NCBI RefSeq assembly: GCF_902832885.1
Contig: NZ_CADFDK010000003.1
Span: 310,001-374,000 of the forward strand
Reading direction: 5' to 3'
DNA from: Burkholderia seminalis DSM 23518
GTDB lineage: Bacteria; Pseudomonadota; Gammaproteobacteria; Burkholderiales; Burkholderiaceae
DNA length: 64,000 bases
The notes below the pieces were generated by a model that was not told the origin of the DNA, ran no database searches, and was given only the letters and a program-made list of their open reading frames with translations. Numbering within the stretch: the first letter of the stretch is position 1; every line of letters begins with the position of its first letter. Positions 14,915 through 50,376 of the stretch are shown piece after piece. Both the position numbers and the translations under genes were made by a program.

Positions 14915-15001
14915 CGTCGGAAATTTCCGACACGGCGGCCCGACGTCGGACAGCAAGCTCAGGCCACGCTGATTGTTCCGCGAAGCGTTGCTGCCAATAC
15001 T
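14915..15001 (+). promoter_or_regulatory. Palindrome / CGCTGATT / ATACT promoter element, copy C
   Basis: The element contains a perfect 16-bp palindrome GTCGGAAATTTCCGAC (14916-14931). Its centre is 43 nt before CGCTGATT (14967-14974), which is 22 nt before ATACT (14997-15001). The same spacings occur in copies at 45638 and 50290. The predicted transcription start near 15008 leaves a leader of about 74 nt before ATG 15082. Confidence 0.7.
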
Positions 15002-15081
15002 GGAAACGTGACAGGACGCAATGCTTTCGCGGCCGGCGCCTGGTTCTTCCACCCCGCCGCCGCAGGACCGAGGAGCTGGCG

Positions 15082-15585
15082 ATGATGGATCCGACCGCAG
15101 CACGCGCCGACGACGCCATGCCGGATGGCGAACCACCGGTCGGTGCGCACCTCGCGACCCGCCGCCCCGGTTACGTGCATCACGGGATCTACATCGGCGA
15201 CGGCAACGTGATTCATTACGCGGGATGGTCGCGCCGTGCGAGCGGCGGCCCGGTCGAGGTCGTCACGCTGGACGGCTTCCGGGCCGGTTTCGGGCTCGCG
15301 GTCATCCGCCACGCGCGCACGCCGTACGACGGAACGGAGGTAGCGCGCCGCGCGGCATCGCGCCTCGGCGAATGCCGCTACCGGCTGCTCACGAACAACT
15401 GCGAGCACTTCTGCCTGTGGTGCCTGTTCGGTGTGGGGAGAAGCGAGCAGGTCGCGTCGTGCCTGCGCAACCCGGTGCACGGCATCGCGGTCGCCGTCAT
15501 GCTCGCCGCGTGCATGCTGGCCGCGCGGTGGCATCCGGCGATGACCGCGCGCGAATGTCCGGTGCGGTGTACGGCCCAGTTTTGA
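15082..15585 (+). CDS. LRAT-domain (NlpC/P60-like) protein with C-terminal membrane helix
   Basis: A 167-residue protein of the lecithin:retinol acyltransferase fold, a permuted papain-like domain. The catalytic set is visible: histidine in YVHHGIYIGDGNVIHYAG near residue 34 and the nucleophile cysteine in LLTNNCEHFCLW near residue 114. Bacterial LRAT proteins are mostly uncharacterised; activity on lipids or thioesters is inferred from eukaryotic HRASLS/LRAT enzymes. A hydrophobic helix (IAVAVMLAACMLAA) near the C-terminus suggests membrane anchoring. AGGAG precedes ATG 15082. It is preceded by the second promoter type rather than an FNR-like box. Confidence 0.85.
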   Translation: MMDPTAARADDAMPDGEPPVGAHLATRRPGYVHHGIYIGDGNVIHYAGWSRRASGGPVEVVTLDGFRAGFGLAVIRHARTPYDGTEVARRAASRLGECRYRLLTNNCEHFCLWCLFGVGRSEQVASCLRNPVHGIAVAVMLAACMLAARWHPAMTARECPVRCTAQF

Positions 15586-15611
15586 CGGCATGGCGGTCGT
15601 GCAGCCACGCG

Positions 15612-15812
15612 TCACGTTGACCCGCGCGAGCGCCCGCGCAAGTCGGCGCGCGCATCCCCCCACCGTTTCGCCCGCGCGATCGCGATGCGGCTCGCGCTGC
15701 CTTCGGTCCGCCCCTGCCGCAGCAGCGCACTGGCCATCTCGATCGCCTTGCCGCGAACCGGCGGCGGCAGATGCCGCATCGAAGGCGGATAACGTTCGTC
15801 ATTCCACCGCAT
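15612..15812 (-). CDS. Small YdaT-like protein, 66 aa
   Basis: A 66-residue protein built on RYPPSMRHLPPPVRGKAIEM followed by a basic helix (GSASRIAIARAKRW). This pattern is that of small proteins like Bacillus YdaT (pattern 'YP-S-NL--PVR-KAI-IAN'), of unknown function. AGGAGAC precedes the ATG. It is convergent with the LRAT gene and lies upstream of no obvious partner; no box was found in its short 5' region, so it may be transcribed with the genes to its right. Confidence 0.75.
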   Translation of the reverse strand: MRWNDERYPPSMRHLPPPVRGKAIEMASALLRQGRTEGSASRIAIARAKRWGDARADLRGRSRGST

Positions 15813-15857
15813 GATCGATTCGTCTCCTGAACATTCGCGCCGCCTTGCCCGTGCCGC

Positions 15858-17135
15858 TCAGCGCGGCAACGCGGCAGGATCGTAGCGATTGCGCGGGTTC
15901 CACAGCATCCAGCCGTCCGTGCCCGCCGCGTCGGCCGCGTCGACCTGTGCGCGGATCTCGTCGGCATCGAACGGCCGGCGATCGAACGCATAATCGCGAA
16001 ACGCCTGGAGCCACGGCCGAAACCGGACATCGCCCAGGCCGGTCCGGCGCTTCGCCTCGGCCAGCGACCGCGCAACGATCTCGCCGGGATGCTCGGTCGG
16101 CTTCCGGCAGCCGGGCAGGCCCCACGTAAAGCCGGACGGATACAGCATCGGCGACACATAGTCGACGACCGGTCCGAGCGCGTCGAGCCGCTGCCCGATC
16201 GCGGTGTCGTCGGCGTTCCAGCAGACGTACCCGAAGATGTCGGCCGACACGTAGAGGTTGTACGGCCGCAGCCGTTCGCGCGCGCCGGTCAGGAATCCGG
16301 TGATCGCCGCGACCCGGTTGGCCTCGGTATTAGGCTCGGCGAACCGGAGACCGTTGGCGTCGGGGAAACGCAGGTAGTCGAACTGGATTTCGTCGAAACC
16401 CATGCGGGCAGCCTCCTCGGCGATATCGTAATTGTGTTGCCAGGCCGCCCGCGACGTCGGGTCGATCCAGCGCTGATGCTCGCGGTCCTGCCAGATCCCG
16501 CCCGCCGCGTCGCGCACGGCCCATTCGGGATGCGCGCGCGCCAGCGGGTCGTCCTTGAACACGACGATGCGGCCGATCACGTAAAGACCGCGCGCGTGGA
16601 ACGTCCGCAACAGGTCCGGCAGATCGGGCGGACGAACGATGGCACCTTCGGTATTGCTCGCGGCACCGGAGATGTCGCGCGCCTGGCTGCGATAGGGCGT
16701 CACGCCGCTGTCGCCCTTCACGTCGACGACGAGCGCGTTGATCGCCGTCTTGTCCTGCAGGGACAGCGCCGCGTCGCGCAGCGTGTGGTCCGCCACGCCG
16801 TAGGCGGACAGATACACGGCTTTCGGACGCACCGGCGTCATCCGGATCGTCTGCGCGCCCTCGGCGGGCGCGAGCGTCGCTTCGGTTCGCGCGTAGCCGG
16901 GCGCCCGCACGCTCACGCGTGTCCCCGCCGCGTCGATCTCCAGTGACAACGCGCCGTCGCGATCGGCGGTCCGGTTCGCGCCCGCCGCATGGCCGATCGC
17001 GCCCGCCGCATGGCCGATCGCGCCCGCAAGCGGCTGCCCGTTCGCGGCATCGACGACGGTGATCGTGACGGGCGCCGCCCGGGCGGCGAAGCCGGCGAGC
17101 GATACGAGCAGGCAGACGATCAAGCGTTCAATCAC
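15858..17135 (-). CDS. Secreted putative glycoside hydrolase (DUF4015)
   Basis: A 425-residue protein with a signal peptide (LIVCLLVSLAGFAARA), a short carboxypeptidase-regulatory-like domain (residues about 22-100), and a TIM-barrel glycosidase-like DUF4015 domain. The barrel shows INALVVDVKGDSG, GRIVVFKDDPLA, GFDEIQFDYLRFPD (probable acidic catalytic region), YVSADIFGYVCW and VDYVSPMLYPSG. Substrate unknown. Its start overlaps the stop of the polysaccharide deacetylase gene by 8 bp, so the two are translationally coupled, like the two domains of PgaB. The linker region carries a perfect 21-bp tandem duplication encoding the heptad AIGHAAG twice. Confidence 0.85.
   Translation of the reverse strand: MIERLIVCLLVSLAGFAARAAPVTITVVDAANGQPLAGAIGHAAGAIGHAAGANRTADRDGALSLEIDAAGTRVSVRAPGYARTEATLAPAEGAQTIRMTPVRPKAVYLSAYGVADHTLRDAALSLQDKTAINALVVDVKGDSGVTPYRSQARDISGAASNTEGAIVRPPDLPDLLRTFHARGLYVIGRIVVFKDDPLARAHPEWAVRDAAGGIWQDREHQRWIDPTSRAAWQHNYDIAEEAARMGFDEIQFDYLRFPDANGLRFAEPNTEANRVAAITGFLTGARERLRPYNLYVSADIFGYVCWNADDTAIGQRLDALGPVVDYVSPMLYPSGFTWGLPGCRKPTEHPGEIVARSLAEAKRRTGLGDVRFRPWLQAFRDYAFDRRPFDADEIRAQVDAADAAGTDGWMLWNPRNRYDPAALPR
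16981..17022. repeat. 21-bp tandem duplication inside the DUF4015 gene
   Basis: Two perfect adjacent copies of a 21-bp unit (16981-17001 and 17002-17022) keep the reading frame. They encode a repeated glycine/alanine/histidine heptad between the surface domain and its following strand. Confidence 0.9.
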
Positions 17136-17922
17136 GGTTTCCCCCGGCGGTTCTCAACAATCCGTTCATGCACCGTGTGTCGCAGTCGTCCGTCATCAGA
17201 TAGCGCGGCAACGCCATTGCCGGGTCGGTGACGCGCACGGGGCGCGCGTCGAGCGTGAACGCCGCGACGTAGCCTTCGCGGGCGGCCAACTGGTCGGTCT
17301 GCGCATCATGGACGCCGAACGGCCAGGCCAGCAGCCTCACCGGCTTACCGGTTTCCGACTCGAGTCGATCTCGTGACCGGATCAACTGGAACGACACGAA
17401 GCGCCGGTAGTCGTCCGGCGTGAGCCGGGCACGCTCGGTGTGGAAATTCGGATGCCAGTACGTATGGGACTCGATGTCGAACCCGCCGGCCTGCCCGAGC
17501 GTGCGCAGCTGGTCCCATGTCATCGCGTAGCTGGCGTTGGAGATGGCGGACGGATAGATGAACAGCGTGACCGGCATCGGACGGGCGGCCAGCAACAGAC
17601 GCAGCATGTCGTAGACGGAGCGATGACCGTCGTCGACCGTGATCGCGACCGCACGCGCCGGCACGGCATCGGCCTGGCCGCCGTGCCAGCGCACGACGTC
17701 GGCAAGCGGCACGATGCGGTAGCCGTTCGCGTCGATTGCCTGCAGCTGATGGCGAAAGGTTTCGGTACGCACCGTCATCGAATCCAGGCGCGTGGCGGCG
17801 AACCGGTGATAGACGAGGATCAGCACGCGCGGCGGTGGCGAGTCGACGGTTGCGACGTCGGCGGACGACACCGCCGACACGCACGACAGCAGGAGCAGGC
17901 AGGCGATCGAGCGAACGGCCAT
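17128..17922 (-). CDS. Secreted polysaccharide deacetylase (CE4 / NodB homology)
   Basis: A 264-residue protein with a signal peptide (IACLLLLSCVSAVSSA) and a NodB-homology domain. Metal-binding and catalytic motifs: AVAITVDDGHRS (general base and metal aspartates) near residue 95, SHTYWHPNFH (metal histidines, H-x3-H) near 157, and LLAWPFGVHD near 199. It should remove acetyl groups from N-acetylated sugars in the periplasm or outer membrane. ATG 17922 has GAGG upstream. The gene is followed with an 8-bp overlap by the DUF4015 glycosidase gene, so the two are likely one enzymatic unit. Confidence 0.9.
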   Translation of the reverse strand: MAVRSIACLLLLSCVSAVSSADVATVDSPPPRVLILVYHRFAATRLDSMTVRTETFRHQLQAIDANGYRIVPLADVVRWHGGQADAVPARAVAITVDDGHRSVYDMLRLLLAARPMPVTLFIYPSAISNASYAMTWDQLRTLGQAGGFDIESHTYWHPNFHTERARLTPDDYRRFVSFQLIRSRDRLESETGKPVRLLAWPFGVHDAQTDQLAAREGYVAAFTLDARPVRVTDPAMALPRYLMTDDCDTRCMNGLLRTAGGNRD

Positions 17923-17976
17923 GGCGGACCTCGTGGAATGGCTGCCCCATTTTTCGCGATCGCGGCGCGAATACCG

Positions 17977-17990
17977 CTGAGCCAGATCAA
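17977..17990 (-). promoter_or_regulatory. Imperfect FNR-like box
   Basis: On the minus strand TTGATCTGGCTCAG: one perfect half-site and one degenerate. An AAAAAT hexamer follows at the expected distance (about 17955) and ATG 17922 comes about 20 nt after the implied start. Confidence 0.5.
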
Positions 17991-18040
17991 TGATCGATCG
18001 CGCATCGACGCGATCGTGCTTGCGTCCAGCCGGCGAACCG

Positions 18041-18976
18041 TCAGCTTGCCTGCGCAACCAGTTCGGCATGAATCCGCTCGATGTCGTCGCGGGTGCACAG
18101 CGCCGTCCCCGGATGCTCGACCGACGCGGACGATGCCGCCAGCGCGTAGCGGCACGCGTCGTCGAACGGCACGCCGCGCGCCAGCGCCCAGACCATGCCG
18201 CCGACGAAACTGTCGCCGGCGCCGACCGTGCTGCATACCGCCGTCGGCCTGGCGGGCAGGCGCAGCGTGCGGTCGCGCGTGACGACCCAGGCGCCGCGCG
18301 CACCGAGCGTCAACGCGACGATGTCGGCCTGGCCTCGCGCCACGAGTTCGCTCGCCTTGCGGCAGGCCGACGTGTCGTCGAGCGGTTCGCCGGCCAGCGC
18401 GCTCAGTTCGCCGAGACTGGGTTTCACGAGATGAACGCCGGCCTCGAGGGCCGCTTGCAGCGCGCGGCCCGCCGCATCGACGACCACCCTGCTTCCCCGT
18501 GCCCGGGCCGTTCGCGCGAGCGTCGCATACAGGTCGTCGGGCGCGCCGGGCGGCAGGCTGCCGCTCAGCACGAGGTAGCGCGGCGCGGGATGCACGGCGT
18601 CGATGCGGGCCGCGCAGTCCCGCCACTCGGCCTCCGTGACCGGCGGCCCGGGCATCAGGAAGCGGTATTCGCGTCCGGTCGCGGTCTCGGTCACGCACAC
18701 GTTCTCGCGCGTCTCGCCCGCGATCCGGATGCGCACCGCCGGCAGGCGCTCCGCTTCGAGCAGCAGCGTCAAGACGTCGCCGGTCGGCCCGCCGGCCAGG
18801 TACAACGCGACGCAATCGCCGCCGAGCCGGTGAACGGTCCGGGCGACGTTGATCCCGCCGCCGCCGGGGTCGCGCCGCGGCCGTGCGCAGCGCAGCTTGT
18901 GGGTATCGACGATGTGCTCGACCGACGTCGAGACATCGACGGCCGGATTCAGCGTGACGGTCACGATATCGGTCAT
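18041..18976 (-). CDS. PfkB-family sugar phosphate kinase (probable phosphofructokinase)
   Basis: A 311-residue ribokinase-fold enzyme. It has the N-terminal PfkB signature region (LNPAVDVS, PGGGGINVART near residues 37-47), LSGSLPPG near 140, and the C-terminal catalytic motif STVGAGDSFVGG near 250, with the base aspartate. The pattern fits 6-phosphofructokinase II or 1-phosphofructokinase; the substrate cannot be separated by eye. It is divergent from the class II ribonucleotide reductase gene and shares a double-box promoter region with it. A PfkB kinase is also part of the mycobacterial DosR regulon. Confidence 0.9.
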   Translation of the reverse strand: MTDIVTVTLNPAVDVSTSVEHIVDTHKLRCARPRRDPGGGGINVARTVHRLGGDCVALYLAGGPTGDVLTLLLEAERLPAVRIRIAGETRENVCVTETATGREYRFLMPGPPVTEAEWRDCAARIDAVHPAPRYLVLSGSLPPGAPDDLYATLARTARARGSRVVVDAAGRALQAALEAGVHLVKPSLGELSALAGEPLDDTSACRKASELVARGQADIVALTLGARGAWVVTRDRTLRLPARPTAVCSTVGAGDSFVGGMVWALARGVPFDDACRYALAASSASVEHPGTALCTRDDIERIHAELVAQAS

Positions 18977-19054
18977 GGCAGGTTGCTCGTAGTCGATGGC
19001 AGGCGCGCAGGATGTCGGCGTGGCTCCACGTTACGTCCGACGCCGGTGACGGCG

Positions 19055-19068
19055 TTGACCGCCATCAA
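19055..19068 (-). promoter_or_regulatory. FNR-like box, pfkB side
   Basis: TTGACCGCCATCAA. Read leftwards, TAACGT (19033-19028) lies 21 nt beyond the box as a -10 candidate for the PfkB kinase gene starting at 18976. Confidence 0.7.
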
Positions 19069-19090
19069 GCGGTGCCGCGAAAGCGCCCGG

Positions 19091-19104
19091 TTGCGCTCGA
19101 TCAA
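19091..19104 (+). promoter_or_regulatory. Imperfect FNR-like box, nrdJ side
   Basis: TTGCGCTCGATCAA: two mismatches in the left half, perfect right half. TACATT (19126-19131) follows after exactly 21 nt as a -10 candidate for the ribonucleotide reductase gene at 19160. Confidence 0.55.
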
Positions 19105-19159
19105 CGGCACGGCCGGGCAGGCGCCTACATTGAATCATTCGTTGTCGCCGAGCCCCGCC

Positions 19160-20950
19160 ATGGATGAGCAGCCGCTTTGCACCACCGTGTTCGCCGAACG
19201 TTATGCGCAGCCCGGCGAAACGTCTCGCGCGGCCGTCTTCCGTCGGGTCGCGCATGCGCTGTCGCTCGCCGAGCCGACCGGATTGCGTGCGCAGATGGAG
19301 CAGGCGTTCTTCCGGAACCTGCAGCACGGCGCGATCGGCGCCGGCCGCATCCTGGCGAACGCCGGCGCACGGACGGGCGGGACGATGATCAACTGCTTCG
19401 TCCATCCGCTTGCCGTGTCGCCCGACCGGCCGGTGCAGACCGTCGACGCCGCGCTCGAGCAGGCGCTCGACGACGCGCGGCTCACGCTGTTGATGGGGGG
19501 CGGAATCGGCTACGACTTCTCGCCGGTGCCGCCCGCCGGTGCGTACGAACGGCGCCTGTCAGCCGAACGAGGGGCATGCGCGGCCATCGACCGCTTCGAT
19601 GCCATGTGCGGCGCCCTGCCGTTCACCGGCCCGCGCCGCGGCGCGCAAATGGGCGTGCTGCGCTGCGATCATCCGGATCTCCTCGCGTTCGTCGCCGCCA
19701 AGCGCGCACGCATGCGCTGGCCGACGTTCAACCTGTCGGTCGGCATCACGGACGCGTTCATGGAAGCGGTCGCGCACGATCTGCCCTGGGCGCTCGTTCA
19801 TCACGCGCCGCCCCGCGCCGCATCCGGTGCATCGATCCGGCGGCTGGATGGGCGCTATCTTCATGCAACGGTGCCGGCCCGCGCGCTCTGGCACGAGATC
19901 GTCCATGCCGCACGCGACAGCGCCGAACCCGGGTTGCTGTTTCTGGACACGATCCGCGAGGCGAATCCGATGCGCGCGCACGAGCGGATCGACGCGACGA
20001 ATCCGTGCGGCGAGCAGCCGCTGCCGTCCTACGGCAGTTGCGTGCTCGGACCGATCGACCTGTCGCGGTTCGTCTCTCACCCGTTCGGTGTCGACGGCAA
20101 ACCGCGCTTCGATGCCGCGGCGCTCGCCGACGCGGTGCGCATCCAGGTGCGCCTGCTCGACAACGTGCTCGACCTGACCGCGTGGCCGCTCGCGGCGCAT
20201 GAACGGGAGGCGCGCCGGATGCGGCGCGTCGGCGTGGGCGTCACCGGGCTGGGCGACGCGCTGACGATGCTTCGGTTGCGCTACGACAGCATCGACGCGC
20301 GTACGGTGGCGGCCGGCATCGCGCGGACGATGCGCGAGCATGCGTTTGCCGCGTCCGCTGCGCTTGCCGCCGAGCGCGGCGCATTTCCCGCCTACGATCC
20401 GGCCGCCTATCTGAGCGGCCCCGCGTACCGCATGCGCCTGCCGCTGAAGGTCCATCACGCGATCGCGCGGCACGGGCTGCGCAACAGCCATCTGCTGTCG
20501 TTTGCGCCGGCCGGCAGCGTGAGCCTCGCCTTCTGCGACAACTGTTCGAACGGGATCGAGCCGGCCGTCGGCTGGACGCAGCGCCGCATGGTGCGCACGG
20601 CGGACGGGCGGATCCGTCCGTTTCGCGTGGAGAATCACGCTTACCGGCTGTTTCGCGAGCGGCACGGCGAGCACGTCGCGTTACCGGACTACTTCGTCAC
20701 GGCGGCGGATATCGCACCGGCCGATCACGTCGCGATGCTCGCCGCATTGCAGCCGTGCGTCGACGCCGGCATCTCGAAGACCGTCACGATGCCCGGCCAG
20801 TGTTCGCTCGCCCAGGTCGATGCGCTGTTCTTCCAGGCCTGGCGCGACCGGCTCAAGGGCATCACCGTCTTCCGCCCCGATCCGCAGCTTGCGTCGGTCG
20901 TCGCGGATGACGCCGCACGACCGTGCAACGCCGTCTGCATCAGCTGTTGA
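19160..20950 (+). CDS. nrdJ: Adenosylcobalamin-dependent (class II) ribonucleotide reductase
   Basis: A 596-residue enzyme that makes deoxyribonucleotides without oxygen, using B12 as the radical source, so no small subunit is needed and none is nearby. The catalytic set is complete: C79 in MINCFV and C294 in SYGSC as the redox pair, and N281, C283 and E285 in the NPCGE motif holding the thiyl radical cysteine. The C-terminus ends in cysteines (589, 593 and 596) for re-reduction. ATG 19160 fits the homologous N-terminus. It functionally parallels nrdZ of the DosR regulon. Control is likely through the FNR-like box at 19091. Confidence 0.93.
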   Translation: MDEQPLCTTVFAERYAQPGETSRAAVFRRVAHALSLAEPTGLRAQMEQAFFRNLQHGAIGAGRILANAGARTGGTMINCFVHPLAVSPDRPVQTVDAALEQALDDARLTLLMGGGIGYDFSPVPPAGAYERRLSAERGACAAIDRFDAMCGALPFTGPRRGAQMGVLRCDHPDLLAFVAAKRARMRWPTFNLSVGITDAFMEAVAHDLPWALVHHAPPRAASGASIRRLDGRYLHATVPARALWHEIVHAARDSAEPGLLFLDTIREANPMRAHERIDATNPCGEQPLPSYGSCVLGPIDLSRFVSHPFGVDGKPRFDAAALADAVRIQVRLLDNVLDLTAWPLAAHEREARRMRRVGVGVTGLGDALTMLRLRYDSIDARTVAAGIARTMREHAFAASAALAAERGAFPAYDPAAYLSGPAYRMRLPLKVHHAIARHGLRNSHLLSFAPAGSVSLAFCDNCSNGIEPAVGWTQRRMVRTADGRIRPFRVENHAYRLFRERHGEHVALPDYFVTAADIAPADHVAMLAALQPCVDAGISKTVTMPGQCSLAQVDALFFQAWRDRLKGITVFRPDPQLASVVADDAARPCNAVCISC

Positions 20951-21002
20951 CCGGCACCATGGCCGACGGCAGGCGTCCGGCGTCGTTCCGGCGCTCGATC
21001 GC

Positions 21003-22910: not shown

Positions 22911-22943
22911 GACGTCGCGCCTGTGCGCCGGACTCGCGACCGC

Positions 22944-23453: not shown

Positions 23454-23493
23454 GGCTGCTTCTCCGTGGTAATGGACCGTACGGGCGCGACGC

Positions 23494-24141: not shown

Positions 24142-24235
24142 GTCGGTCTCCCGTCCGGGCGCGTGCCGATCGCGAAGCGTGCGACCGGAAGCGTGCCGTA
24201 CCCGATTCAGCATCGCGCATGGCGGCGCCGGCGGC

Positions 24236-24249
24236 TTGACGAGGATCAA
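24236..24249 (-). promoter_or_regulatory. FNR-like box for the BON-NMD3-ftsH operon
   Basis: TTGACGAGGATCAA, centred about 101 bp before ATG 24141. GATGCT (24214-24209) is a weak -10 candidate 21 nt further on. Confidence 0.7.
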
Positions 24250-24303
24250 TCAACCGCGGGCTTGCCGGCACGGCGCGCGCATGCGTCACCGCTGAATTCG
24301 TCT

Positions 24304-24317
24304 GTTGATGCAGATCA
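24304..24317 (+). promoter_or_regulatory. FNR-like box, canonical
   Basis: TTGATGCAGATCAA, a perfect match to the E. coli FNR consensus. GATCAT follows about 22 nt later. The flanks (ATTCGTC before the box) are shared with the paralogous promoter at 31341. Confidence 0.85.
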
Positions 24318-24423
24318 ACGGTGCGCCGCGGCGCGACTCGATCATGACCGGAGACGCCGCGAACGCCGCGACAACGCCGGCAGGTCGCGTCGAGAGGGTA
24401 GAACCGCTTCCCGGGAGACCGTC

Positions 24424-30177: not shown

Positions 30178-30179
30178 TC

Positions 30180-31340: not shown

Positions 31341-31354
31341 TTGATACAGATCAA
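31341..31354 (+). promoter_or_regulatory. FNR-like box, canonical
   Basis: TTGATACAGATCAA, perfect consensus. GATCAT (31376-31381) follows after 21 nt. Paralogous to the promoter at 24304. Confidence 0.85.
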
Positions 31355-38570: not shown

Positions 38571-38584
38571 TTGATCTGAGTCAA
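38571..38584. promoter_or_regulatory. FNR-like box between divergent PHA operon and stress protein
   Basis: TTGATCTGAGTCAA. To the right, TAGACT (38606-38611) follows after 21 nt, an excellent -10 for the gene at 38652. To the left, only a weak GCACAG is found for the PHA operon (start 38461), so the same box may serve both directions unequally. Confidence 0.8.
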
Positions 38585-39491: not shown

Positions 39492-39500
39492 GGGCGGCCG

Positions 39501-40715: not shown

Positions 40716-40774
40716 CGCGACCGGCGTGCACGCGCCGATGATGAGTGCATCGACATCCGTTCAAGGGAACTGCC

Positions 40775-42108: not shown

Positions 42109-42120
42109 GCCGGCGCGAAC

Positions 42121-42142
42121 GGGCAGCCACTCGCGGCTGCCC
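42121..42142. terminator. Bidirectional hairpin between convergent stress-protein genes
   Basis: GGGCAGCC pairs with GGCTGCCC around a 6-nt loop, in the 46-bp gap between convergent genes. It is followed by GCTTCCTTCCCC, a T/C-rich but not T-only tail. Confidence 0.7.
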
Positions 42143-42154
42143 GCTTCCTTCCCC

Positions 42155-42625: not shown

Positions 42626-42696
42626 GACGCCTCCCAGTTGTCGTCCGGGTTCGACCGGTTCATGAAGCCAGTCTGATCCCGGCAGGCGCCGGTCCG

Positions 42697-42710
42697 TTGA
42701 CACGGGTCAA
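42697..42710 (-). promoter_or_regulatory. FNR-like box
   Basis: Perfect dyad TTGACACGGGTCAA. Read leftwards, CAGACT (42675-42670) follows after 21 nt. No good -10 is seen toward the histidine kinase on the right. Confidence 0.78.
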
Positions 42711-42875
42711 GCACGCGCGGCGTCGCCCCCTTGCGCATCGGTCCCGATTGGCGAATGCCGACAAAACGCGCACAATTCAGGGCGATATCGTGGTTGCGGC
42801 CCGCTCCGCCCTTCGTGCCCGGCGTCCGGCCCGCCGCCAGCCCGCCGTCGACGAAATCCGTCAGGATGAACGGCA

Positions 42876-44864
42876 ATGACCGTGAATGCGCCCCCCTTCC
42901 GGGCCGGACCGGCTTCGCAGCCGATTCGGCCCAGCCGATATGCGACCGTTGCCGTGCTGCTGACGCTGGTGCTCGGCGTGGCCGCCTCGTTTGCCGCATC
43001 CCGGCTGCTGCAGCATCGGGCGGAGCAAGCCGCCCAGGCACGCTTCGCGCAAACCGCGACGCGTGCGACAGCCGACCTCCGCCGCAGCCTCCTCGGTGCC
43101 GCCGTCGTCCTGCGCGGCGCCCGGGAATTCGCGTCGGCACTGCCCGCGCCGCCGGACGGCGGCGCGTGGCGCCGGTATCTCGCCGGTCTCGATCTGGACG
43201 GGTTGCAGTCGCCGGTCCGCAGCCTCGGGCGAATCGAGCCGAGCCTGGCGAACAACGATCAGCCGACCCGGCAGGCGCTGCAGCGGGCGGCGGAAACCGG
43301 CAAGGTCGCGCTCGCCGCGAACGCCATTCAGGACGGCACCGATGCGGCGATCGCCCGGACCGAACTGACGCTGTACTTGCCGATCGATGCACAGGGTGAA
43401 GACCGCACGTCGCCCGGCGCGCGGCACGCAACGGCGGCCGGGTACGTGTATGCGGCGCTGAATCCGGCTCGTCTCGTCGATCCGTCCCTGCTCGAACGGC
43501 TGCGCCTGGAAATCCTGGCCGACCATCCCGCGGCGCCCGTGTATTCCGGCGGTTTCGGCGGAAGCGACGCATTCGACGCCGGCGCGACGTTCGAGCGGAC
43601 CGATGCGCTGACGTTCGGCGGCACGCCGCTCTCGCTCCACTACAGCGCGCCGCGCGCCGCGACGGACGCGGCCGCGACGGCCGTGCTGCTGGCGGGCATC
43701 GTACTGTCGCTGACGCTGGCCGCGCTCGTGCGGCAGGCCGTCGCGAACCGAACGCCGGCGCCCGCCGGCGACAGCCAGCCCACCGAGGCCCGGATGATGG
43801 GCATCATCCGCTCGTCGATGGAGGCCATCATCACCGTCGACGAAAGCCAGACGATCGTGATCTTCAACCCGGCCGCGGAGCGCGTGTTCGGCGTCTCCGC
43901 GATGGAGGCGGTCGGTGCGCCGCTGTCGCGTTTCATCCCCGAGCGCTTTCGCGCCGTGCATGCGCGACACGTCGAGCAATTCGGCGTGACCGGCGTGTCG
44001 GAGCGCCAGATGGGCCGGCAACGCGTGCTGTTCGGCTTGCGCGGCGACGGCACCGAGTTTCCGATCGAGGCGTCGATCTCGCAGATTCGCGACGGCACCG
44101 GCAAGCTGTACACGGTCATGCTGCGCGACGTGACCGAGCGGGTGCGCGCGGAAAACGCCCTCAAGCAGTCGCGCGAGGAACTGCGCGACCTGTCCGCCAA
44201 CCTGCAGAACGTGCGCGAGGAAGAGAAGACGCGGATCGCGCGCGAACTGCACGACGACCTCGGCCAGCAACTCACCGCGCTCAAGATGGATCTGTCGGCC
44301 GTCGAACTGGGGCTCGCGGGCGTCGTCGCGCCCAACCCCGGCGTGCGCGAGCAATTGGGCGGCATGCACCGCCTGATCGATTCGACCGTTGCGTCGCTCC
44401 GGCGCATCGCGGCCGATCTGCGGCCGGTGATGCTCGACGACCTGGGCCTCGTCCCGGCGATCGACTGGCTGGCGAACGATTTCACGCGCCGCTACAGAAT
44501 CACGGTCGACCGGGACATCGCCCCCGGCGACATCGCGTTCACCGGCGCGGGAGCGACCACGCTGTTCCGCATCGTGCAGGAGGCGCTGACCAACGTCGCG
44601 CGGCACTCGGACGCGACGAACGTGAAACTGTCGTTGAAAGCGGAAGACGGTTATTGCATGCTGCGCATCGCGGACAACGGTCACGGCGCGCCGGCGCCCC
44701 CCCGCGATGCGCAGGACCGTCCGTCGTTCGGCCTGATCGGCATCCGCGAGCGCGCGCACATGCTCGACGGCACGGTGACGATCGACAGCCAGCCGGGCAA
44801 GGGATTCACGATCACCGTGGCGCTGCCGCTGCACGCCATCGAGCAAGGAGAGATGCGGTCATGA
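42876..44864 (+). CDS. PAS-domain sensor histidine kinase (NarX/DegS-type HisKA_3)
   Basis: A 662-residue membrane kinase. Two helices (about residues 24-45 and 265-290) enclose a roughly 220-residue periplasmic region of the CHASE type. A PAS domain follows (about 300-425, MEAIITVDESQTIVIFNPAA). The phosphoacceptor is H459 in ARELHDDLGQQL, of the HisKA_3 class that pairs with NarL-type regulators. The ATP domain has IVQEALTNVARHSDA and IADNGHG, then GLIGIRERA. The signal is unknown; PAS could bind heme or flavin, but no diagnostic residue is claimed. Its stop overlaps the regulator start (ATGA). No FNR-like promoter was found for it. Confidence 0.93.
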   Translation: MTVNAPPFRAGPASQPIRPSRYATVAVLLTLVLGVAASFAASRLLQHRAEQAAQARFAQTATRATADLRRSLLGAAVVLRGAREFASALPAPPDGGAWRRYLAGLDLDGLQSPVRSLGRIEPSLANNDQPTRQALQRAAETGKVALAANAIQDGTDAAIARTELTLYLPIDAQGEDRTSPGARHATAAGYVYAALNPARLVDPSLLERLRLEILADHPAAPVYSGGFGGSDAFDAGATFERTDALTFGGTPLSLHYSAPRAATDAAATAVLLAGIVLSLTLAALVRQAVANRTPAPAGDSQPTEARMMGIIRSSMEAIITVDESQTIVIFNPAAERVFGVSAMEAVGAPLSRFIPERFRAVHARHVEQFGVTGVSERQMGRQRVLFGLRGDGTEFPIEASISQIRDGTGKLYTVMLRDVTERVRAENALKQSREELRDLSANLQNVREEEKTRIARELHDDLGQQLTALKMDLSAVELGLAGVVAPNPGVREQLGGMHRLIDSTVASLRRIAADLRPVMLDDLGLVPAIDWLANDFTRRYRITVDRDIAPGDIAFTGAGATTLFRIVQEALTNVARHSDATNVKLSLKAEDGYCMLRIADNGHGAPAPPRDAQDRPSFGLIGIRERAHMLDGTVTIDSQPGKGFTITVALPLHAIEQGEMRS

Positions 44865-45508
44865 TCAGGGTACTCATCGCCGACGACCACGCACTCGTCA
44901 GGGACGGTCTTCGGCACATCCTGCAGAGCGCGAGCGGGTTCGAGGTCGTCGGCGAAGCGCAGGACAGTGCGTCGACGATCGCGCTCATGCGCGGCACGGA
45001 CGCCAACGTGCTGGTGCTCGACCTGTCGATGCCCGGCCGCAACGGGGTCGAGCTCATCAAGCAGATCAAGGACGAGAAGCCGGGATTGCATATCCTCGTG
45101 CTGACGATGCATGCCGAGCAGCAGTACGCGGTGCGGGCATTCCGCGCGGGCGCCTCGGGCTACATGACCAAGGAAAGTGCCAGCGCCGAACTGGTCGCCG
45201 CCCTGACCAAGATCGCGGCCGGCGGCGTCTATGTCAGCCTGACCATGGCCGAGCAGTTCGCGCAGAGCCTGAACGAGCCGACCGATCTCCTGCCGCACCA
45301 GCGCCTGTCCGACCGCGAGTTCGACGTGTTCCGGCGCGTCACCACCGGCGAGTCGATTTCCGAGATCGCGCAGGCGCTCTGCGTCAGCGTCAAGACCGTC
45401 AGCACGTACAAGACGCGGATCCTCGAAAAAATGCAGATGCCGAACGACACGGCACTCGTCCGCTACGCGATGCGCCACAAGCTGTTCGAGGACCCGGACG
45501 AGCTGTGA
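44861..45508 (+). CDS. NarL/FixJ-family response regulator
   Basis: A 215-residue regulator. The receiver has D8 and D9, phosphoacceptor D54 in VLDLSMPG and the conserved lysine in GYMTKESAS near residue 104. The C-terminal LuxR-type helix-turn-helix is at about 150-195 (LSDREFDVFRRVTTGESISE, then IAQALCVSVKTVSTYKTRI). It is translationally coupled to the kinase. Downstream, before the FNR gene, is a palindrome of the kind NarL-type dimers bind, so direct control of the FNR gene is proposed. Confidence 0.95.
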   Translation: MIRVLIADDHALVRDGLRHILQSASGFEVVGEAQDSASTIALMRGTDANVLVLDLSMPGRNGVELIKQIKDEKPGLHILVLTMHAEQQYAVRAFRAGASGYMTKESASAELVAALTKIAAGGVYVSLTMAEQFAQSLNEPTDLLPHQRLSDREFDVFRRVTTGESISEIAQALCVSVKTVSTYKTRILEKMQMPNDTALVRYAMRHKLFEDPDEL

Positions 45509-45918
45509 CGCCGACGGCGGCATCGGGCACGGCCGCTTCCCCGCGCGGAGGGACCGGACGCATCGGCGCGGCGAAGCGCCATCCGCCGTCCGTGTCCGGC
45601 GCACGCCGGCGACGCTCGCGACAAGATGCCGCAGCGCTGTAGGAAACGTCCTACAAGGCTTCCCTCTCCCCTACCGCAACTTCAATTCCGGCTGATTTTC
45701 TTGACGCCGCGCAACCTCCATACTTCGCATCAAGAAAAACGAGCAAACGTGCCTCCCGGAGCCAGGGCAGCATCATCGACGAGACCGGCGTAGCGGTCTC
45801 CGGCGCGTCCGGCGGGCTTTCCCGACAGGAAGGCGGCAGACACCAAGACCGCCGCTACAACGGCCAGCGCGATCCCGCCCGACGGCGAACCGCCGCTGCC
45901 GCCGAACAGGAGCCGATC
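45509..45918. other. Intergenic region with long leader of the FNR gene
   Basis: No gene is supported in these 410 bp. The promoter element at 45638-45724 is the main feature. From its predicted start near 45731 there is an unusually long leader of about 188 nt before ATG 45919, containing an arginine-codon-like purine-rich stretch and several short GC-rich stems but no recognised riboswitch. Confidence 0.55.
45638..45724 (+). promoter_or_regulatory. Palindrome / GGCTGATT / ATACT promoter element, copy A
   Basis: Perfect palindrome TGTAGGAAACGTCCTACA (45638-45655). Its centre is 43 nt before GGCTGATT (45690-45697), which is 22 nt before ATACT (45720-45724). Same geometry as copies at 14915 and 50290. 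It lies between the NarL-type regulator gene and the FNR-type gene. Confidence 0.75.
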
Positions 45919-46692
45919 ATGCAGAGCAGTGCCGAAGTCCCGACGACCATGCCGTTACCCCCGTTCATCCCGCTGCGCTCCGTCGAGCCGGCGGATCAGC
46001 CCAAGCGCGCCGCGTCCCGCTGTTCGACATGCGCGTTGCGTACCGTCTGCATGCCGCCCGATCTTTCTCCCGACGATTTCGCGCGCGTCGACGCGATGAT
46101 CTGCACGACGCGCCACGTCCGGCGCGGCGAAACGCTGTTTCGCGCGGGGGACGCCTTCACCAGCATCTATGCGGTGCGGACCGGGTCGTTCAAGACCATC
46201 ATGATGCATCGCGACGGCGACGAGCAGATCACCGGCTTCCAGATCGTCGGCGAATCGCTCGGGCTCGATGGCGTGCACACCGGGCATCACAACGGCGACG
46301 CGGTCGCGCTCGAGGACAGCACGGTCTGCATCATCCCGTTCGGCCAGCTCGAGCAGCTGTGCCGCGAAGTGCGGCCGATGCAGCATCACGTGTACCAGAT
46401 GATGGGCGGCGAGATCGTGCGCGAATCGTCCCAGATGCTGCTGCTCGGCACGATGAGCGCCGAGCAGCGGGTGGCCGCGTTCCTGCTCAATCTTTCCGCG
46501 CGCTTCAAGGCGCGCGGCTACTCGGCCGCGGAATTCGTGCTGCGGATGACGCGCGACGAGATCGGCGAATACCTCGGCATGAAGCTCGAAACGGTCAGCC
46601 GCATGTTGTCGAAATTCCAGCACAAGGGGCTCGTCGCGGCGCAGGGCAAGCAGATCCGGATCGTCGATTCGGAAGGCCTGCGGCAAATCTGA
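45919..46692 (+). CDS. FNR-type oxygen-sensing transcription regulator
   Basis: A 257-residue CRP/FNR protein. C35, C38 and C44 (CSTCALRTVC) reproduce the C-x2-C-x5-C spacing of E. coli FNR, and C137 (STVCIIPF) matches the fourth cluster ligand, so an oxygen-labile 4Fe-4S cluster is expected. The cyclic-nucleotide-like beta-roll spans about 60-150. The recognition helix carries E224-T-V-S-R228, equivalent to the E-S-R residues of FNR that read TTGAT half-sites. It is therefore the likely activator of the many boxes in this window. AGGAG precedes the ATG. Its own promoter is the second type, not an FNR-like box. Confidence 0.95.
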   Translation: MQSSAEVPTTMPLPPFIPLRSVEPADQPKRAASRCSTCALRTVCMPPDLSPDDFARVDAMICTTRHVRRGETLFRAGDAFTSIYAVRTGSFKTIMMHRDGDEQITGFQIVGESLGLDGVHTGHHNGDAVALEDSTVCIIPFGQLEQLCREVRPMQHHVYQMMGGEIVRESSQMLLLGTMSAEQRVAAFLLNLSARFKARGYSAAEFVLRMTRDEIGEYLGMKLETVSRMLSKFQHKGLVAAQGKQIRIVDSEGLRQI

Positions 46693-46717
46693 GCGCGCCG
46701 CGGCGCCGTCGGGCGGA

Positions 46718-47707
46718 TCAGCCGCGCATGCCCAGCACGGCGGCGCCCGATACGCGTCCGCCGCGCAGGTCGTCGAGTGCGCGGTTCGCGTCGGTCAGCG
46801 CGTAGCGCACTGCCTCGACCCGCAGCGGCATCGCGGCGGCGACCCGCATGAATTCGACTGCGTCCGCACGGGTCAGGTTGGCCACCGACGCGATGCGGCG
46901 TTCGCCCCACAGCCACGCGTACGGAAAGGCCGGGATGTCGCTCATGTGAATGCCGCCGCACACGACGATCCCGCCTTTGTCGACCGCGCGCAGCGCGGCC
47001 GGCACCAGCGCGCCCACCGGCGCGAAGATCAGCGCCGCATCGAGCGGCTCCGGCGGCGTTTCGTCGCTGCCGGCGGCCCATGCGGCGCCCAGCGACAGCG
47101 CGAGCTGCTGCGCGTCCGTGTCGCCGGGCTTCGTCAGCGCGAACACCTCGCGTCCTTCGCCATGCGCGACCTGCGCGACGAGATGCGCCGCCGCACCGAA
47201 GCCATAGATGCCGATGCGGCGCGCGTCGCCCGCCATGCGCAAGGTTCGGTAGCCGATCAGGCCCGCGCACAGGAGCGGCGCGGCTTCCAGGTCGGCATAG
47301 CGCCGCGGCAGATGCACGCAATACCGGTGATCGGCGGCCGCACGCTCGGCGTAGCCGCCGTCGATCGTATAGCCGGTGAATCCGGCGGTGTCGCACAGGT
47401 TCTCGCGGCCGGACGTGCAATACGCGCAATGCCCGCACGTCGAGCCGAGCCACGGAACACCCACGCGGTCGCCCACCGCGAAGCCCGTCACGCCCGCACC
47501 CATCGCGCGCACCGTTCCGACGATTTCGTGCCCCGGAATCAGCGGCAGCTTCGGATGCGCGAGCTCGCCGTCGACGACGTGAAGATCCGTCCGGCACACG
47601 CCGCATGCATGCACGTCGATCAGCAGTTGGCCCGGCGCGGGCGACGGATCCGGCACGCGCGCTTCGCGCAAGTGCGGCGTCGTGCCGTCAAACATCATCG
47701 CGAGCAT
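46718..47707 (-). CDS. Zinc-dependent alcohol dehydrogenase (AdhA-like)
   Basis: A 329-residue medium-chain dehydrogenase. Catalytic zinc: CGVCRTDLH near residue 38 and PGHEIVG near 60. Structural zinc: CGHCAYCTSGRENLC. Cofactor fold: GIYGFGAAAHLVAQVA near 165, in which the usual G-x-G-x-x-G reads GFGAAA. The sequence FTGYTIDGGYAE is typical of the AdhA/'alcohol dehydrogenase AdhP-like' group active on primary alcohols. ATG 47707 is preferred because GGGAGGGGAGC precedes it. Divergent from the nitroreductase operon, sharing one FNR-like box. Confidence 0.92.
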   Translation of the reverse strand: MLAMMFDGTTPHLREARVPDPSPAPGQLLIDVHACGVCRTDLHVVDGELAHPKLPLIPGHEIVGTVRAMGAGVTGFAVGDRVGVPWLGSTCGHCAYCTSGRENLCDTAGFTGYTIDGGYAERAAADHRYCVHLPRRYADLEAAPLLCAGLIGYRTLRMAGDARRIGIYGFGAAAHLVAQVAHGEGREVFALTKPGDTDAQQLALSLGAAWAAGSDETPPEPLDAALIFAPVGALVPAALRAVDKGGIVVCGGIHMSDIPAFPYAWLWGERRIASVANLTRADAVEFMRVAAAMPLRVEAVRYALTDANRALDDLRGGRVSGAAVLGMRG

Positions 47708-47796
47708 GCTCCCCTCCCTGCGCGATCGGTCTCGCGCGTTTCGCATTCCAAGCGTAGCCGCACCGCAACGCGCGCGGCTCGCCCGATGACGGGGGC

Positions 47797-47810
47797 TTGA
47801 CGTGGGTCAA
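47797..47810. promoter_or_regulatory. FNR-like box between alcohol dehydrogenase and nitroreductase operons
   Basis: Perfect dyad TTGACGTGGGTCAA. A weak CACGAT -10 follows to the right for the gene at 47881. None is clear to the left. Confidence 0.75.
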
Positions 47811-47880
47811 CGGCCGCCGGTCGGTTGCTGACACGATGAAGTGGCATGACGCCGCCCGCGCGGCAACCAGGAGATGATCG

Positions 47881-48888
47881 ATGATATCCGTTCCCCCGCT
47901 TGCCGCAAGCGCCCATCCCGACCAGCAACTGAGGGAGCTGCTGGGCTACGCGGTGCTGGCGCCGTCCAGCCATAATTCCCAGCCGTGGCGCTTCCTGGTC
48001 AACGGCACCACGATGTCGGTCTGCGCGGACCGCGTCCGCGCGCTGCCGGTGGTCGATCCGTTCGATCGCGAGCTGATCATGAGCTGCGGCGCGGCGTTGC
48101 TCAACCTGCGAGTCGCGCTCAATCACGCCGGGCTCGCCCATACGATCCGCACGTTTCCGTCCGAAGTCGATCCCGATCTACTGGCACTCGTCCGGGTCTG
48201 CGACGACGGTTATTCCGATGCGTCGCTCGGCGCGCTGTTCGATGCGATTCCGGAGCGCGTCACCACGCGCGCGCCGTTCGAATCGACGGCCGTGCCGGAC
48301 GAGATCCAGCAGGCGCTGATCGCGGCGGGCGTCGCGGAAGGTGCCGACGTCGCGTGCGTCGACTCGATCGCGCATCGCGCGCGCGTCGCCGAGCTGGTGG
48401 CCGAGGCCGACCGTCAGCAGTTCGCGGACCCGCGCTTTCGCCGCGAGCTGGCGAGCTGGATCGATCCGCGCCGGCACGTCGACGGCATGCCGGCCTTCGC
48501 GGCCGGCGTGCCGTCGTTGCTGGACTTCGCCGCGCCCGTCGTGACGATGGCGGTACGGACCTTCGATCTCGGCAACGGGCTCGCCGCGCTGCATCACCAG
48601 CTCGTCGGTGCGTCGCCGCTGATCGTGTGCATCGCGACCGTGCGCGACGATCGCGAAGCGTGGCTCGCCGCCGGCCAGGCGCTCGAGCGCATCCTGCTCG
48701 TCGCGACGCGCGCGGGTTATACCGCGTCGTACCTGAACCAGCCGATCGAGACGGCCGGCCTGCGTGCCCACCTCCGCCACATGCTCGGGCTGCGCGGCGA
48801 GCCGCAGTTGCTGCTGCGCGTCGGGCGCGGTCCGCATACGCCGCATTCGCCGCGTCGCCCGCTCGACGACGTGATCTCCTTCACCTGA
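47881..48888 (+). CDS. Acg-type nitroreductase-family protein
   Basis: A 335-residue protein of the Acg group of the FMN nitroreductase family, as in Rv2032 and Rv3131 of the DosR regulon. Markers: LGYAVLAPSSHNSQPWRFLV near residue 23 and the C-terminal half GYTASYLNQPIETAGLRAHL followed by LGLRGEPQLLLRVG. Acg proteins have a large lid that can exclude substrate, and a role in storing FMN has been suggested; enzymatic activity is uncertain. AGGAG lies upstream of the ATG. First gene of an apparent operon with the cytochrome and LOG genes. Confidence 0.88.
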   Translation: MISVPPLAASAHPDQQLRELLGYAVLAPSSHNSQPWRFLVNGTTMSVCADRVRALPVVDPFDRELIMSCGAALLNLRVALNHAGLAHTIRTFPSEVDPDLLALVRVCDDGYSDASLGALFDAIPERVTTRAPFESTAVPDEIQQALIAAGVAEGADVACVDSIAHRARVAELVAEADRQQFADPRFRRELASWIDPRRHVDGMPAFAAGVPSLLDFAAPVVTMAVRTFDLGNGLAALHHQLVGASPLIVCIATVRDDREAWLAAGQALERILLVATRAGYTASYLNQPIETAGLRAHLRHMLGLRGEPQLLLRVGRGPHTPHSPRRPLDDVISFT

Positions 48889-48907
48889 CCTCGACGAGGA
48901 ACCGAAC

Positions 48908-49243
48908 ATGAACGTCATGCGTTGCGCCGCCCTCTGCGTGATCGCCGGCGCGGCCGGCGCGGCCGCCGCGCAGACGACCGTGCCCGAGCCGACCGAACTC
49001 GTCAATGCCCAGCACTGCATGTTCTGCCATACGCTCGACATGACGTTCCTCGGGCCGTCGTTTCACGAGATCGCCGAGCGCTACCGCGGCGATCCGCACG
49101 CCGCCGCGGAACTGGAACGCAAGCTGCGCGTCGGCGGCCGTGCGCATTGGGGCGACACGCCGATGCCGTCCGCCGTCGATCGCGGCGGGCCGCTGTCTCC
49201 CGACGACGCGCATCAGCTCGTGCAATGGGTGTTGAGCCAGTGA
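48908..49243 (+). CDS. Periplasmic monoheme cytochrome c
   Basis: A 111-residue protein with a signal peptide (ALCVIAGAAGAAAAQ) and a mature c551-like domain of about 88 residues. The heme site is CMFCH, with methionine ligand probably in WGDTPMPS, and the conserved LGPSFHEIAERY helix. It carries electrons in the periplasm, possibly to a terminal reductase encoded elsewhere. GAGGA precedes the ATG. It lies 19 bp after the nitroreductase gene. Confidence 0.9.
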   Translation: MNVMRCAALCVIAGAAGAAAAQTTVPEPTELVNAQHCMFCHTLDMTFLGPSFHEIAERYRGDPHAAAELERKLRVGGRAHWGDTPMPSAVDRGGPLSPDDAHQLVQWVLSQ

Positions 49244-49265
49244 TCGGCGCGCGGCACTTCCGTTC

Positions 49266-50294
49266 ATGTCGACCCTCGTGAAACGCGCGCCCGCCGGCAT
49301 GGCAAGAGGCCGCGCACGCCGCCGCCCCGCATCCGCCGCGACGCTCGCGAAGGCCCGCGCCAAACGGCCGCGCGCGAAGCCCGAGGCCGTCGCCGGCAAG
49401 GCCGCCGGCGGGCGCACCCCGCGCCGGCCGCGGCGCGGCGCCCATTCCCTGAACCGGCCGCCGGCCGAGGAAGACGCGACCCTTCTGCAGGGTGCCGGCA
49501 TGCGCGGCATCCGGCTGCAATTCGATTACTGGAAAGCCGAGGAGCGGCTGCAGAACGAGCGGATCGGCCATGCGGTCGTGATCTACGGCAGCACGCGCAT
49601 CGTCGCGCCGTCGGTCGCGAAGGCGCGGCTGGACGAAGCGAATCGCCTGCTGGCGGAGCGTCCGTACGACGCGGGCCGGCGGCGCGCCGTCACGATCGCC
49701 AGCCGGCTCGTCGAATACAGCGTGTATTACCGCGTCGCGCGCGAATTCGGGCGCATCGTCGCGCATGCCGACCGCTGCACGCGCACCGCGCGCCTCGCCA
49801 TCGTCACGGGCGGCGGTCCCGGCATCATGGAGGCCGCCAACCGCGGCGCCTACGAACGCGGCGCGCCGAGCATCGGCTTCAATATCGAGCTGCCGCGCGA
49901 ACAGGCGCCCAATCCGTACATCACGCCGGCGCTCGGCTTCCGGTTCCACTATTTCGCGATCCGCAAGCTGCACCTGCTCGAGCGCGCGAAAGCGGCCGTC
50001 TTCTTCCCCGGCGGCTACGGCACCTTCGACGAACTGTTCGAGGTGCTGACCTTGCTACAGACCCGAAAGATCGCGCCGCTGCCGGTCATCCTCGTCGGCG
50101 AGGCGTACTGGCGCCGCGCGATCGACCTGGCGTTTCTTGCCGACGAAGGGATGATCGACCGCCGCGACCTGGAACTGTTCACGTATTGCGAATCCGCCGC
50201 GGCGATCTGGCAAGCGATAGGCGGCTGGTATGCGCGGCGGCGCGAACGCGCGCCGGCACGCTGCAACGCGGCTTCGACGCCACGTGCCGTGTAG
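49266..50294 (+). CDS. LOG-family protein with basic N-terminal extension
   Basis: A 342-residue protein with the LOG/TIGR00730 Rossmann-like core: VIYGSTRIVAP, VTGGGPGIMEAANRGA near residue 180 and PGGYGTFDELFE near 248, the active-site loop. LOG proteins release cytokinin-type bases from nucleotides or act as nucleosidases and phosphoribohydrolases. The first 65 residues are rich in K, R, A and P without a predicted fold; a shorter start further in is possible because the upstream ribosome-binding site is weak. Last gene of the nitroreductase-cytochrome operon. Confidence 0.85.
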   Translation: MSTLVKRAPAGMARGRARRRPASAATLAKARAKRPRAKPEAVAGKAAGGRTPRRPRRGAHSLNRPPAEEDATLLQGAGMRGIRLQFDYWKAEERLQNERIGHAVVIYGSTRIVAPSVAKARLDEANRLLAERPYDAGRRRAVTIASRLVEYSVYYRVAREFGRIVAHADRCTRTARLAIVTGGGPGIMEAANRGAYERGAPSIGFNIELPREQAPNPYITPALGFRFHYFAIRKLHLLERAKAAVFFPGGYGTFDELFEVLTLLQTRKIAPLPVILVGEAYWRRAIDLAFLADEGMIDRRDLELFTYCESAAAIWQAIGGWYARRRERAPARCNAASTPRAV

Positions 50295-50376
50295 GAATCG
50301 GCCGACGGAACGGGCGCGATTCCTACCGCGACTTCGGGGCAGGCTGATTGAACCGCGGGCGCGCGGCAACGATACT
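50290..50376 (+). promoter_or_regulatory. Palindrome-like / GGCTGATT / ATACT promoter element, copy B
   Basis: Left half TGTAGGAAT (50290-50298) is intact and the right half is degenerate. The centre is 43 nt before GGCTGATT (50342-50349), which is 22 nt before ATACT (50372-50376). The stretch TACCGCGACTTC matches copy A. GTAGGAATCG and CGATTCCTAC also form a 10-bp inverted repeat here. The implied leader to ATG 50435 is about 52 nt. Confidence 0.7.

Follow-up and report, generated by a model that had tools for sequence, protein, structure and literature searches.

A promoter family of the lxa locus of Burkholderia seminalis, probably controlled by a linked NarL/LuxR-family response regulator

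Which protein controls a set of promoters that recur with the same geometry in a low-oxygen locus of Burkholderia? The DNA analysed, hereafter called the window, is a stretch of 64,000 nucleotides from Burkholderia seminalis DSM 23518 (contig NZ_CADFDK010000003.1, positions 310,001 to 374,000, forward strand). It represents the lxa (low-oxygen-activated) locus, its gene content and order around BCAM0281-BCAM0290 matching Table 2 of PMC4981469; in B. cenocepacia J2315 the lxa locus is BCAM0275A-BCAM0323. Three 87-bp segments of the window, at 14915-15001, 45638-45724 and 50290-50376, carry in register a palindrome, the heptamer GCTGATT and the pentamer ATACT, as stated in the original prediction, which took them for promoters with two bound activators. 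They precede genes for an LRAT-domain protein, an FNR regulator and a 74-residue protein. The observation is real and conserved, and it is likely (probability approximately 0.75) that the three sites are promoters of one direct regulon of the NarL/LuxR-family response regulator encoded at 44861-45508, which would bind them as an array. Good though indirect evidence, drawn from sequence comparison, suggests that the promoter family can be assigned to this one regulator, which probably switches the genes on; binding as an array and oxygen sensing are what we infer for it.

Architecture and conservation of the promoters

The combination GCTGATT-22-ATACT, with 22 nt between the two elements, occurred three times in the window, compared with 0.0007 occurrences expected from base composition. 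On both strands together the window contains 12 copies of GCTGATT and 19 of ATACT, and among distances of 0-79 nt between them only 22 (three times) and 29 (once) were found. The three promoters are intergenic, the third overlapping the final 5 bases of the preceding gene. With the spacing relaxed to 20-24 nt, the whole genome gave four matches, three of them the window copies, and the reversed control gave none. The additional match (L001, 20-nt spacing) was rejected as a member, being absent from the profile matches (see below) up to E 10. Equally good matches inside genes, the case which the original prediction had named as refuting it, were not seen in the genome-wide search.

In 65 genomes of the genus the exact key, with 22 nt, gave 83 matches, distributed over 43 genomes, and the reversed control two; the invariance of GCTGATT and ATACT and the 22-nt distance are there by construction. 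Target genes were called by tblastn with the window proteins for 82 of these matches, one on contig 1 of genome G048 being left out. Orthologs of the window targets followed 75 of the 82, namely the FNR gene (44), the LRAT gene (18) and the gene for the 74-residue protein (13). Among the other seven, three share the palindrome and four (L025, L031, L035, L063) do not, the latter being excluded from the alignment of 78 promoters. Three species (L023, L049, L057) have in common a copy of the motif, with palindrome, before a gene to which no identity was assigned. Phylogenetic footprinting, which had been proposed as a check, thus found the blocks conserved before the same genes in related genomes, while the spacers diverged.

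The 78-promoter alignment was nearly gapless, with four strongly conserved blocks in the order TGTAGGAA-N4-CCTACA, CCTAC.GCA.CTTCA, GCTGATT and C.ATACT. Many of the columns between them were only weakly conserved, CTTCC being common before the second block in FNR promoters. This second block (block B, CCTAC..GCA.CTTC), which lies between the palindrome (block A) and GCTGATT (block C), had been overlooked originally. It is CCTACCGCAnCTTCA-like before the FNR and 74-residue protein genes and CGGACAGCAAGCTCAG-like before the LRAT genes, and in it the CCTAC half-site recurs 20 bp downstream of the palindrome's own. Both spacings had been described as exact, but 43 nt is the usual and not the sole distance from palindrome to GCTGATT, since this was 44 in 5 of the 78 aligned promoters, the remainder being in the 43 register, and apparently 45, by eye, in two Trinickia loci. 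In eight variants of other genomes ATACT lies one base farther from the palindrome.

A sequence-only profile (R1), built from the 78 genus promoters with palindrome, matched four sites of the genome over its full length (E 8e-20 to 8e-10), after which came a partial match (E 0.009). The fourth full-length promoter (L137; genome G000, contig C6, 14374-14460, minus strand, E 8e-10) precedes genes for a stand-alone receiver and for an FNR protein sharing 66 % identity with the window FNR, and is located approximately 12 kb from a regulator gene 81 % identical to the window regulator. When 398 genomes of the family were surveyed (61 in the genus and 337 outside), the motif was found at E 0.01 or better in 170 genomes belonging to 12 of 25 genera, with approximately 4 expected by chance from the E-value. 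GCCGATT replaces GCTGATT in many matches outside the genus (together GCYGATT). The genes downstream of 30 of 54 matches, read from nine genomes, encoded FNR, receiver-FNR, LRAT, relatives of the 74-residue protein, an FlhD-family protein and some products without a name.

Co-occurrence with a linked kinase-regulator pair

The genes of a sensor histidine kinase and of the response regulator lie directly upstream of the FNR promoter (Table 1). Within the genus, motif and regulator homolog were found together in 60 of 61 sampled genomes. The exception, G054, has neither; it is the only one of 65 genomes without the regulator at E 1e-70, has no motif match and carries a single FNR gene at E 1e-70. 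Outside the genus, 86 genomes have a close ortholog of the regulator (at E 1e-90 or better, a cut of our own); 51 of them carry the motif at E<=1e-6, compared with 0 of the 251 others. Relaxing the threshold to E<=1e-5 gave 59 of the 86 and three others (G100, G297, G365). At E<=0.01 the motif was present in 71 of the 86, in 30 of the 59 genomes whose homolog is distant and in 9 of the 192 that lack one.

The association was also seen from the side of the regulator. Loci were fetched with the regulator protein alone as the query, and the best 80 of 494 relatives, all named (Burkholderia, Paraburkholderia, Trinickia), were kept. The profile matched 86 times in 56 of these loci, 84 of the 86 matches being on the strand of the regulator, and in 40 of the 80 a match was located 7-1368 bp downstream of the regulator stop codon on the same strand. 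A palindrome at most 1.5 kb downstream of the regulator was found in 43 of 80 loci, compared with 3.1 expected in shuffles. GCYGAT and ATACT, neither of them required by this selection, were within 1 nt of register in 40 of the 43, and both were in register in 22 of the 25 palindrome-chosen loci from L226 on (mostly Paraburkholderia and Trinickia). Ten of the 15 regulator-positive genomes missed by the profile were examined, and eight of these had the palindrome (at most 2 mismatches) with ATACT one base farther, six of the eight also having GCYGAT.

The best matches of the kinase PAS domain were FixL heme PAS structures (E 1e-17), a multi-sensor kinase (9e-13) and DosP (6e-9). The residue aligned with the position which we take to be the FixL heme histidine is a histidine in 64 of the 66 loci, of the 80, that could be aligned.

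Several further genes were found behind the motif in other genomes. In L185, L186, L199 and L204 it precedes an FlhD-like gene (Pfam FlhD, E 1e-39 for L185, the one checked), suggesting a possible link of the regulon to motility control. In genus g25 (L190, L191, L196) the downstream gene encodes a protein with MKRRQFLGCL near its start and, for L190, which was tested, no Pfam match. Relatives of the 74-residue protein, for which Pfam and NCBIfam searches gave no match, sit under the same promoter in other genera, one of them carrying LVTLDGQIGRE. Genome G044 has two lxa-type regulator genes (95-96 % identical to the window regulator) and four motif matches before lxa-type genes, as if the locus had been partially duplicated.

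Table 1 Promoter elements, regulatory genes and target genes in the window
Feature	Position	Strand	Remarks
Palindrome (block A), LRAT promoter	14915-14932	+	CGTCGGAAATTTCCGACA; 18 LRAT promoters of the genus
Block B, LRAT promoter	14947-14960	+	CGGACAGCAAGCTC; from the alignment
Block C (GCTGATT), LRAT promoter	14968-14974	+	Putative -40 to -34
-10 element ATACT, LRAT promoter	14997-15001	+	Predicted start near 15008
LRAT-domain protein, target gene	15082-15585	+	Pfam LRAT, E 2e-24
Sensor histidine kinase, CHASE-PAS-HisKA_3-HATPase	42876-44864	+	PAS closest in sequence to FixL heme PAS
NarL/LuxR-family response regulator, proposed activator	44861-45508	+	Pfam Response_reg and GerE; co-occurrence, linkage
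Palindrome (block A), FNR promoter	45638-45655	+	TGTAGGAAACGTCCTACA; 44 orthologous promoters
CTTCC, common in FNR promoters	45659-45663	+	
Block B, FNR promoter	45670-45683	+	CCTACCGCAACTTC
Block C (GCTGATT), FNR promoter	45691-45697	+	
-10 element ATACT, FNR promoter	45720-45724	+	Predicted start near 45731
FNR regulator, target gene	45919-46692	+	NCBIfam Fnr, 231 bits (cut-off 228); BCAM0287 by synteny
Palindrome (block A), promoter of 74-residue protein	50290-50307	+	TGTAGGAATCGGCCGACG, degenerate right half; 13 orthologous promoters
Block B, promoter of 74-residue protein	50322-50335	+	CCTACCGCGACTTC
Block C (GCTGATT), promoter of 74-residue protein	50343-50349	+	
-10 element ATACT, promoter of 74-residue protein	50372-50376	+	Predicted start near 50383
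74-residue protein, target gene	50435-50659	+	BCAM0282 by synteny

Proposed mechanism and its alternatives

In different species and genera, blocks A (TGTAGG-N6-CCTACA), B and C and ATACT thus keep a near-fixed register in front of the same genes, and they track one regulator gene. On the assumption that ATACT represents -11 to -7, GCYGATT would span -40 to -34 and block B approximately -61 to -48, with the palindrome centred near -84. The promoter layout of the original prediction, with a regulator palindrome upstream, a proximal element near -40 and ATACT as the -10, is well supported by the conservation of the blocks across species, the starts themselves being predicted only. A reading of GCTGATT and ATACT as -35 and -10 elements was rejected because 21-22 nt is too long, the usual spacing being 17. 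Sigma-28 promoters have the elements GCCGATAA and TAAA, and a sigma-28 reading of GCYGATT was rejected since by eye no TAAA-like element stands at the required place in the promoter alignment.

In the mechanism which we propose, the adjacent kinase would phosphorylate the regulator at low oxygen, and the regulator would load with high affinity on the upstream palindrome and extend cooperatively along one helix face, over block B to block C. The last unit, at GCYGATT, would abut a weak -35 and contact RNA polymerase together with the -10 ATACT, which may be why the 22 nt to ATACT are kept more strictly than the distance to the palindrome. Family-balanced conservation over the palindrome-to-GCTGATT stretch, computed with approximate target labels (45/18/12/3, compared with 44/18/13/3 by tblastn), had its strongest period at 10-10.5 bp among the periods tested, which fits one protein stacked on one DNA face. 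The targets in this genome would be two FNR genes (that of the window and that of the receiver-FNR operon on the other contig), the LRAT gene and the 74-residue protein gene; the FNR products would in turn work through the numerous FNR boxes of the locus, giving a cascade from the regulator through FNR to the FNR-box genes. Where a genome has the promoter but not the adjacent pair, the role of the regulator would fall to a paralog that shares approximately 81 % identity with it and occurs in almost every genome of the genus. Across the 80 loci the DNA-binding helix region (KTVSTYKTRI) is largely unchanged, 7 of its 10 positions being conserved at 97 % or more, and the paralog may thus serve both.

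Separate control of BCAM0287 and BCAM0282 receives weak support from expression in one pair of B. contaminans isolates, in which the values of most lxa rows drop several-fold from serum to sputum (PMC4981469, Table 2). In serum, sputum and medium, respectively, BCAM0287 differs 7.4-, 7.2- and 8.8-fold and BCAM0282 4.2-, 4.1- and 8.5-fold between the isolates (same table). By eye, the only other lxa rows which keep more than half in sputum are BCAM0285, the unchanged regulator BCAM0288 and WR30_RS16550.

Several points weigh against control by this regulator bound as an array. The FNR genes also co-occur with the regulator, so co-occurrence alone cannot name the binding protein. The E cut-offs for the motif were of our own choosing, the genomes counted are not independent samples, and the regulator-negative G100 (70 % complete) narrowly misses the strictest cut-off (1.5e-6). 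In two of the ten profile-missed genomes examined, nothing was evident downstream of the regulator. At the FNR promoters of G002, G010, G019, G022, G028 and G048 no adjacent kinase-regulator pair was found in the stretches covered (only 3.0 kb in G002 and 2.4 kb in G048); the closest regulator in these genomes is approximately 81 % identical and lies elsewhere, so that the paralog must be invoked. The half-site is clearly repeated in block B only, GCYGATT being poorly like CCTAC, and the permutation test of the helical period (p 0.0015 or less) takes no account of local autocorrelation. Other differences between the strains could underlie the expression comparison, in which the regulator gene itself is almost unchanged (1.9, 1.8 and 1.7 in serum, sputum and medium, same isolate pair; PMC4981469).

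If there were two activators, as originally suggested, the palindrome would be bound by the response regulator or some other protein, and GCYGATT by a different factor. Such an arrangement would explain why GCYGATT is unlike the CCTAC half-site and why its distance is stricter to ATACT (22) than to the palindrome (43-45). The strict proximal distance is, however, also expected of a last array unit that touches polymerase, and the interval between palindrome and GCYGATT holds block B, in which the half-site recurs, and is conserved with helical periodicity; we therefore consider two activators unlikely, and less likely than one response regulator on several sites. That nothing but chance, or shared ancestral sequence without function, produced the pattern could be argued from the mere three copies in the window, but is contradicted by conservation across genera, with blocks kept, spacers diverged and controls near zero, and has a negligible probability.

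If FNR proteins, by autoregulation, or the stand-alone receiver bound the motif, this would account for the predominance of FNR genes among its targets and for their co-occurrence with it. When up to 2 mismatches are allowed, the window contains 38 copies of the FNR box, TTGAT-N4-ATCAA, compared with 7.7 expected (approximately fivefold; for example at 24236-24249, 24305-24318, 31341-31354, 38571-38584 and 53632-53645), but none was found at this threshold within the three promoters, and the idea of an FNR box there was rejected. The FNR boxes probably represent a second family of promoters in the locus. In the 3.7-kb locus of the third FNR gene of the genome (contig C25, presumed from its neighbour to be of the fixK/anr2 type) the profile matched nowhere at E<=1, and the promoter of this gene was rejected as a family member. 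In 42 FNR-positive, regulator-negative genomes outside the genus (counted by eye; FNR at E 1e-70), whose FNRs may mostly be another ortholog, the motif was found at E<=1e-4 in one (G100) and at E<=0.01 in two. The stand-alone receiver, in the one case tested (L176), has Response_reg as its sole Pfam domain. Binding by FNR or by the receiver thus appears improbable. Still more so is control by the FixLJ system of B. dolosa, which excerpts of PMC5234846 describe as a low-oxygen two-component system inducing fixK in the complex, since the presumed fixK-type gene lacks the motif, the NCBIfam FixJ model gives the window regulator 92 bits, its cut-off being 255, and the motif tracks a different regulator gene.

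Relation to known systems and to low-oxygen control

The regulator favoured here may be compared with BvgA, a LuxR/NarL-type regulator. At Bordetella fhaB three BvgA dimers bind on one helix face, with a strong inverted repeat farthest upstream and the last dimer abutting the -35 (sections of PMC7250471). The promoters described here likewise have an upstream inverted repeat with further conserved elements down to the -35, blocks A, B and C being in near-fixed register, and the sequence evidence links them to a LuxR/NarL-type gene with which they co-occur. They differ in the palindrome (TGTAGG-N6-CCTACA, compared with TAAGAAATTTCCTA in fhaB), in a CCTAC half-site step of 20 bp, compared with a dimer spacing of 22 bp (dimers being only presumed here), and in belonging to a low-oxygen regulon.

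The GacA/UvrY box is TGTAAG-N6-CTTACA (excerpts of PMC3171408). The palindrome has the same 18-bp frame and nearly identical arms, differing by one base per arm, and GacA/UvrY is also the best NCBIfam model for the regulator, although its score (178.9 bits) lies well below the 280-bit cut-off; the targets here, unlike those of GacA/UvrY, are protein genes of a low-oxygen locus. As in FixL-FixJ-FixK, a FixL-like PAS kinase is combined with a LuxR-type regulator and an FNR-type target gene, whereas the kinase is of the HisKA_3 type, the regulator is not FixJ by score and the presumed fixK gene lacks the motif. The locus further resembles the DosR regulon of Mycobacterium tuberculosis in its universal stress proteins, Hsp20 and Acg-type nitroreductase (DosR comparison in parts of PMC6127331).

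B. cenocepacia H111 does not survive anoxia once both of its anr genes are lost (excerpts of PMC9104464), and the two FNR genes of this strain are BCAM0049 and BCAM1483 (excerpts of PMC3759415). The receiver-FNR operon behind the fourth promoter is presumably the counterpart of BCAM1483. Start sites from differential RNA sequencing (dRNA-seq) have been published for biofilm-grown J2315 (excerpts of PMC4603805).

No description of the motif was found in the literature searched, the founding lxa paper being outside that coverage, and the excerpts of the lxa literature seen mentioned neither a promoter motif nor a direct regulator for these genes; the lxa papers covered left control at candidate FNR-type regulators. 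The original remark that no described regulon shows this pattern agrees with these searches, but the genes belong to a known locus and the architecture is like that of BvgA at fhaB. Regulon and motif are therefore new as far as the literature search reached, and of a known general kind.

The promoter code is shared by several genera and leads here to a small regulon with a named candidate regulator and to predictions at the level of single bases. It would also provide a second case of a BvgA-like promoter layout, in which spacing can be compared across many natural variants. We consider it an evenly balanced possibility that the system is a new oxygen response of Burkholderia, Paraburkholderia and their relatives, in which a FixL-like PAS kinase and a GacA-like regulator acting as a multi-dimer array would stand above FNR and, in other genera, would also drive an flhD homolog, linking oxygen sensing, FNR output and a motility regulator.

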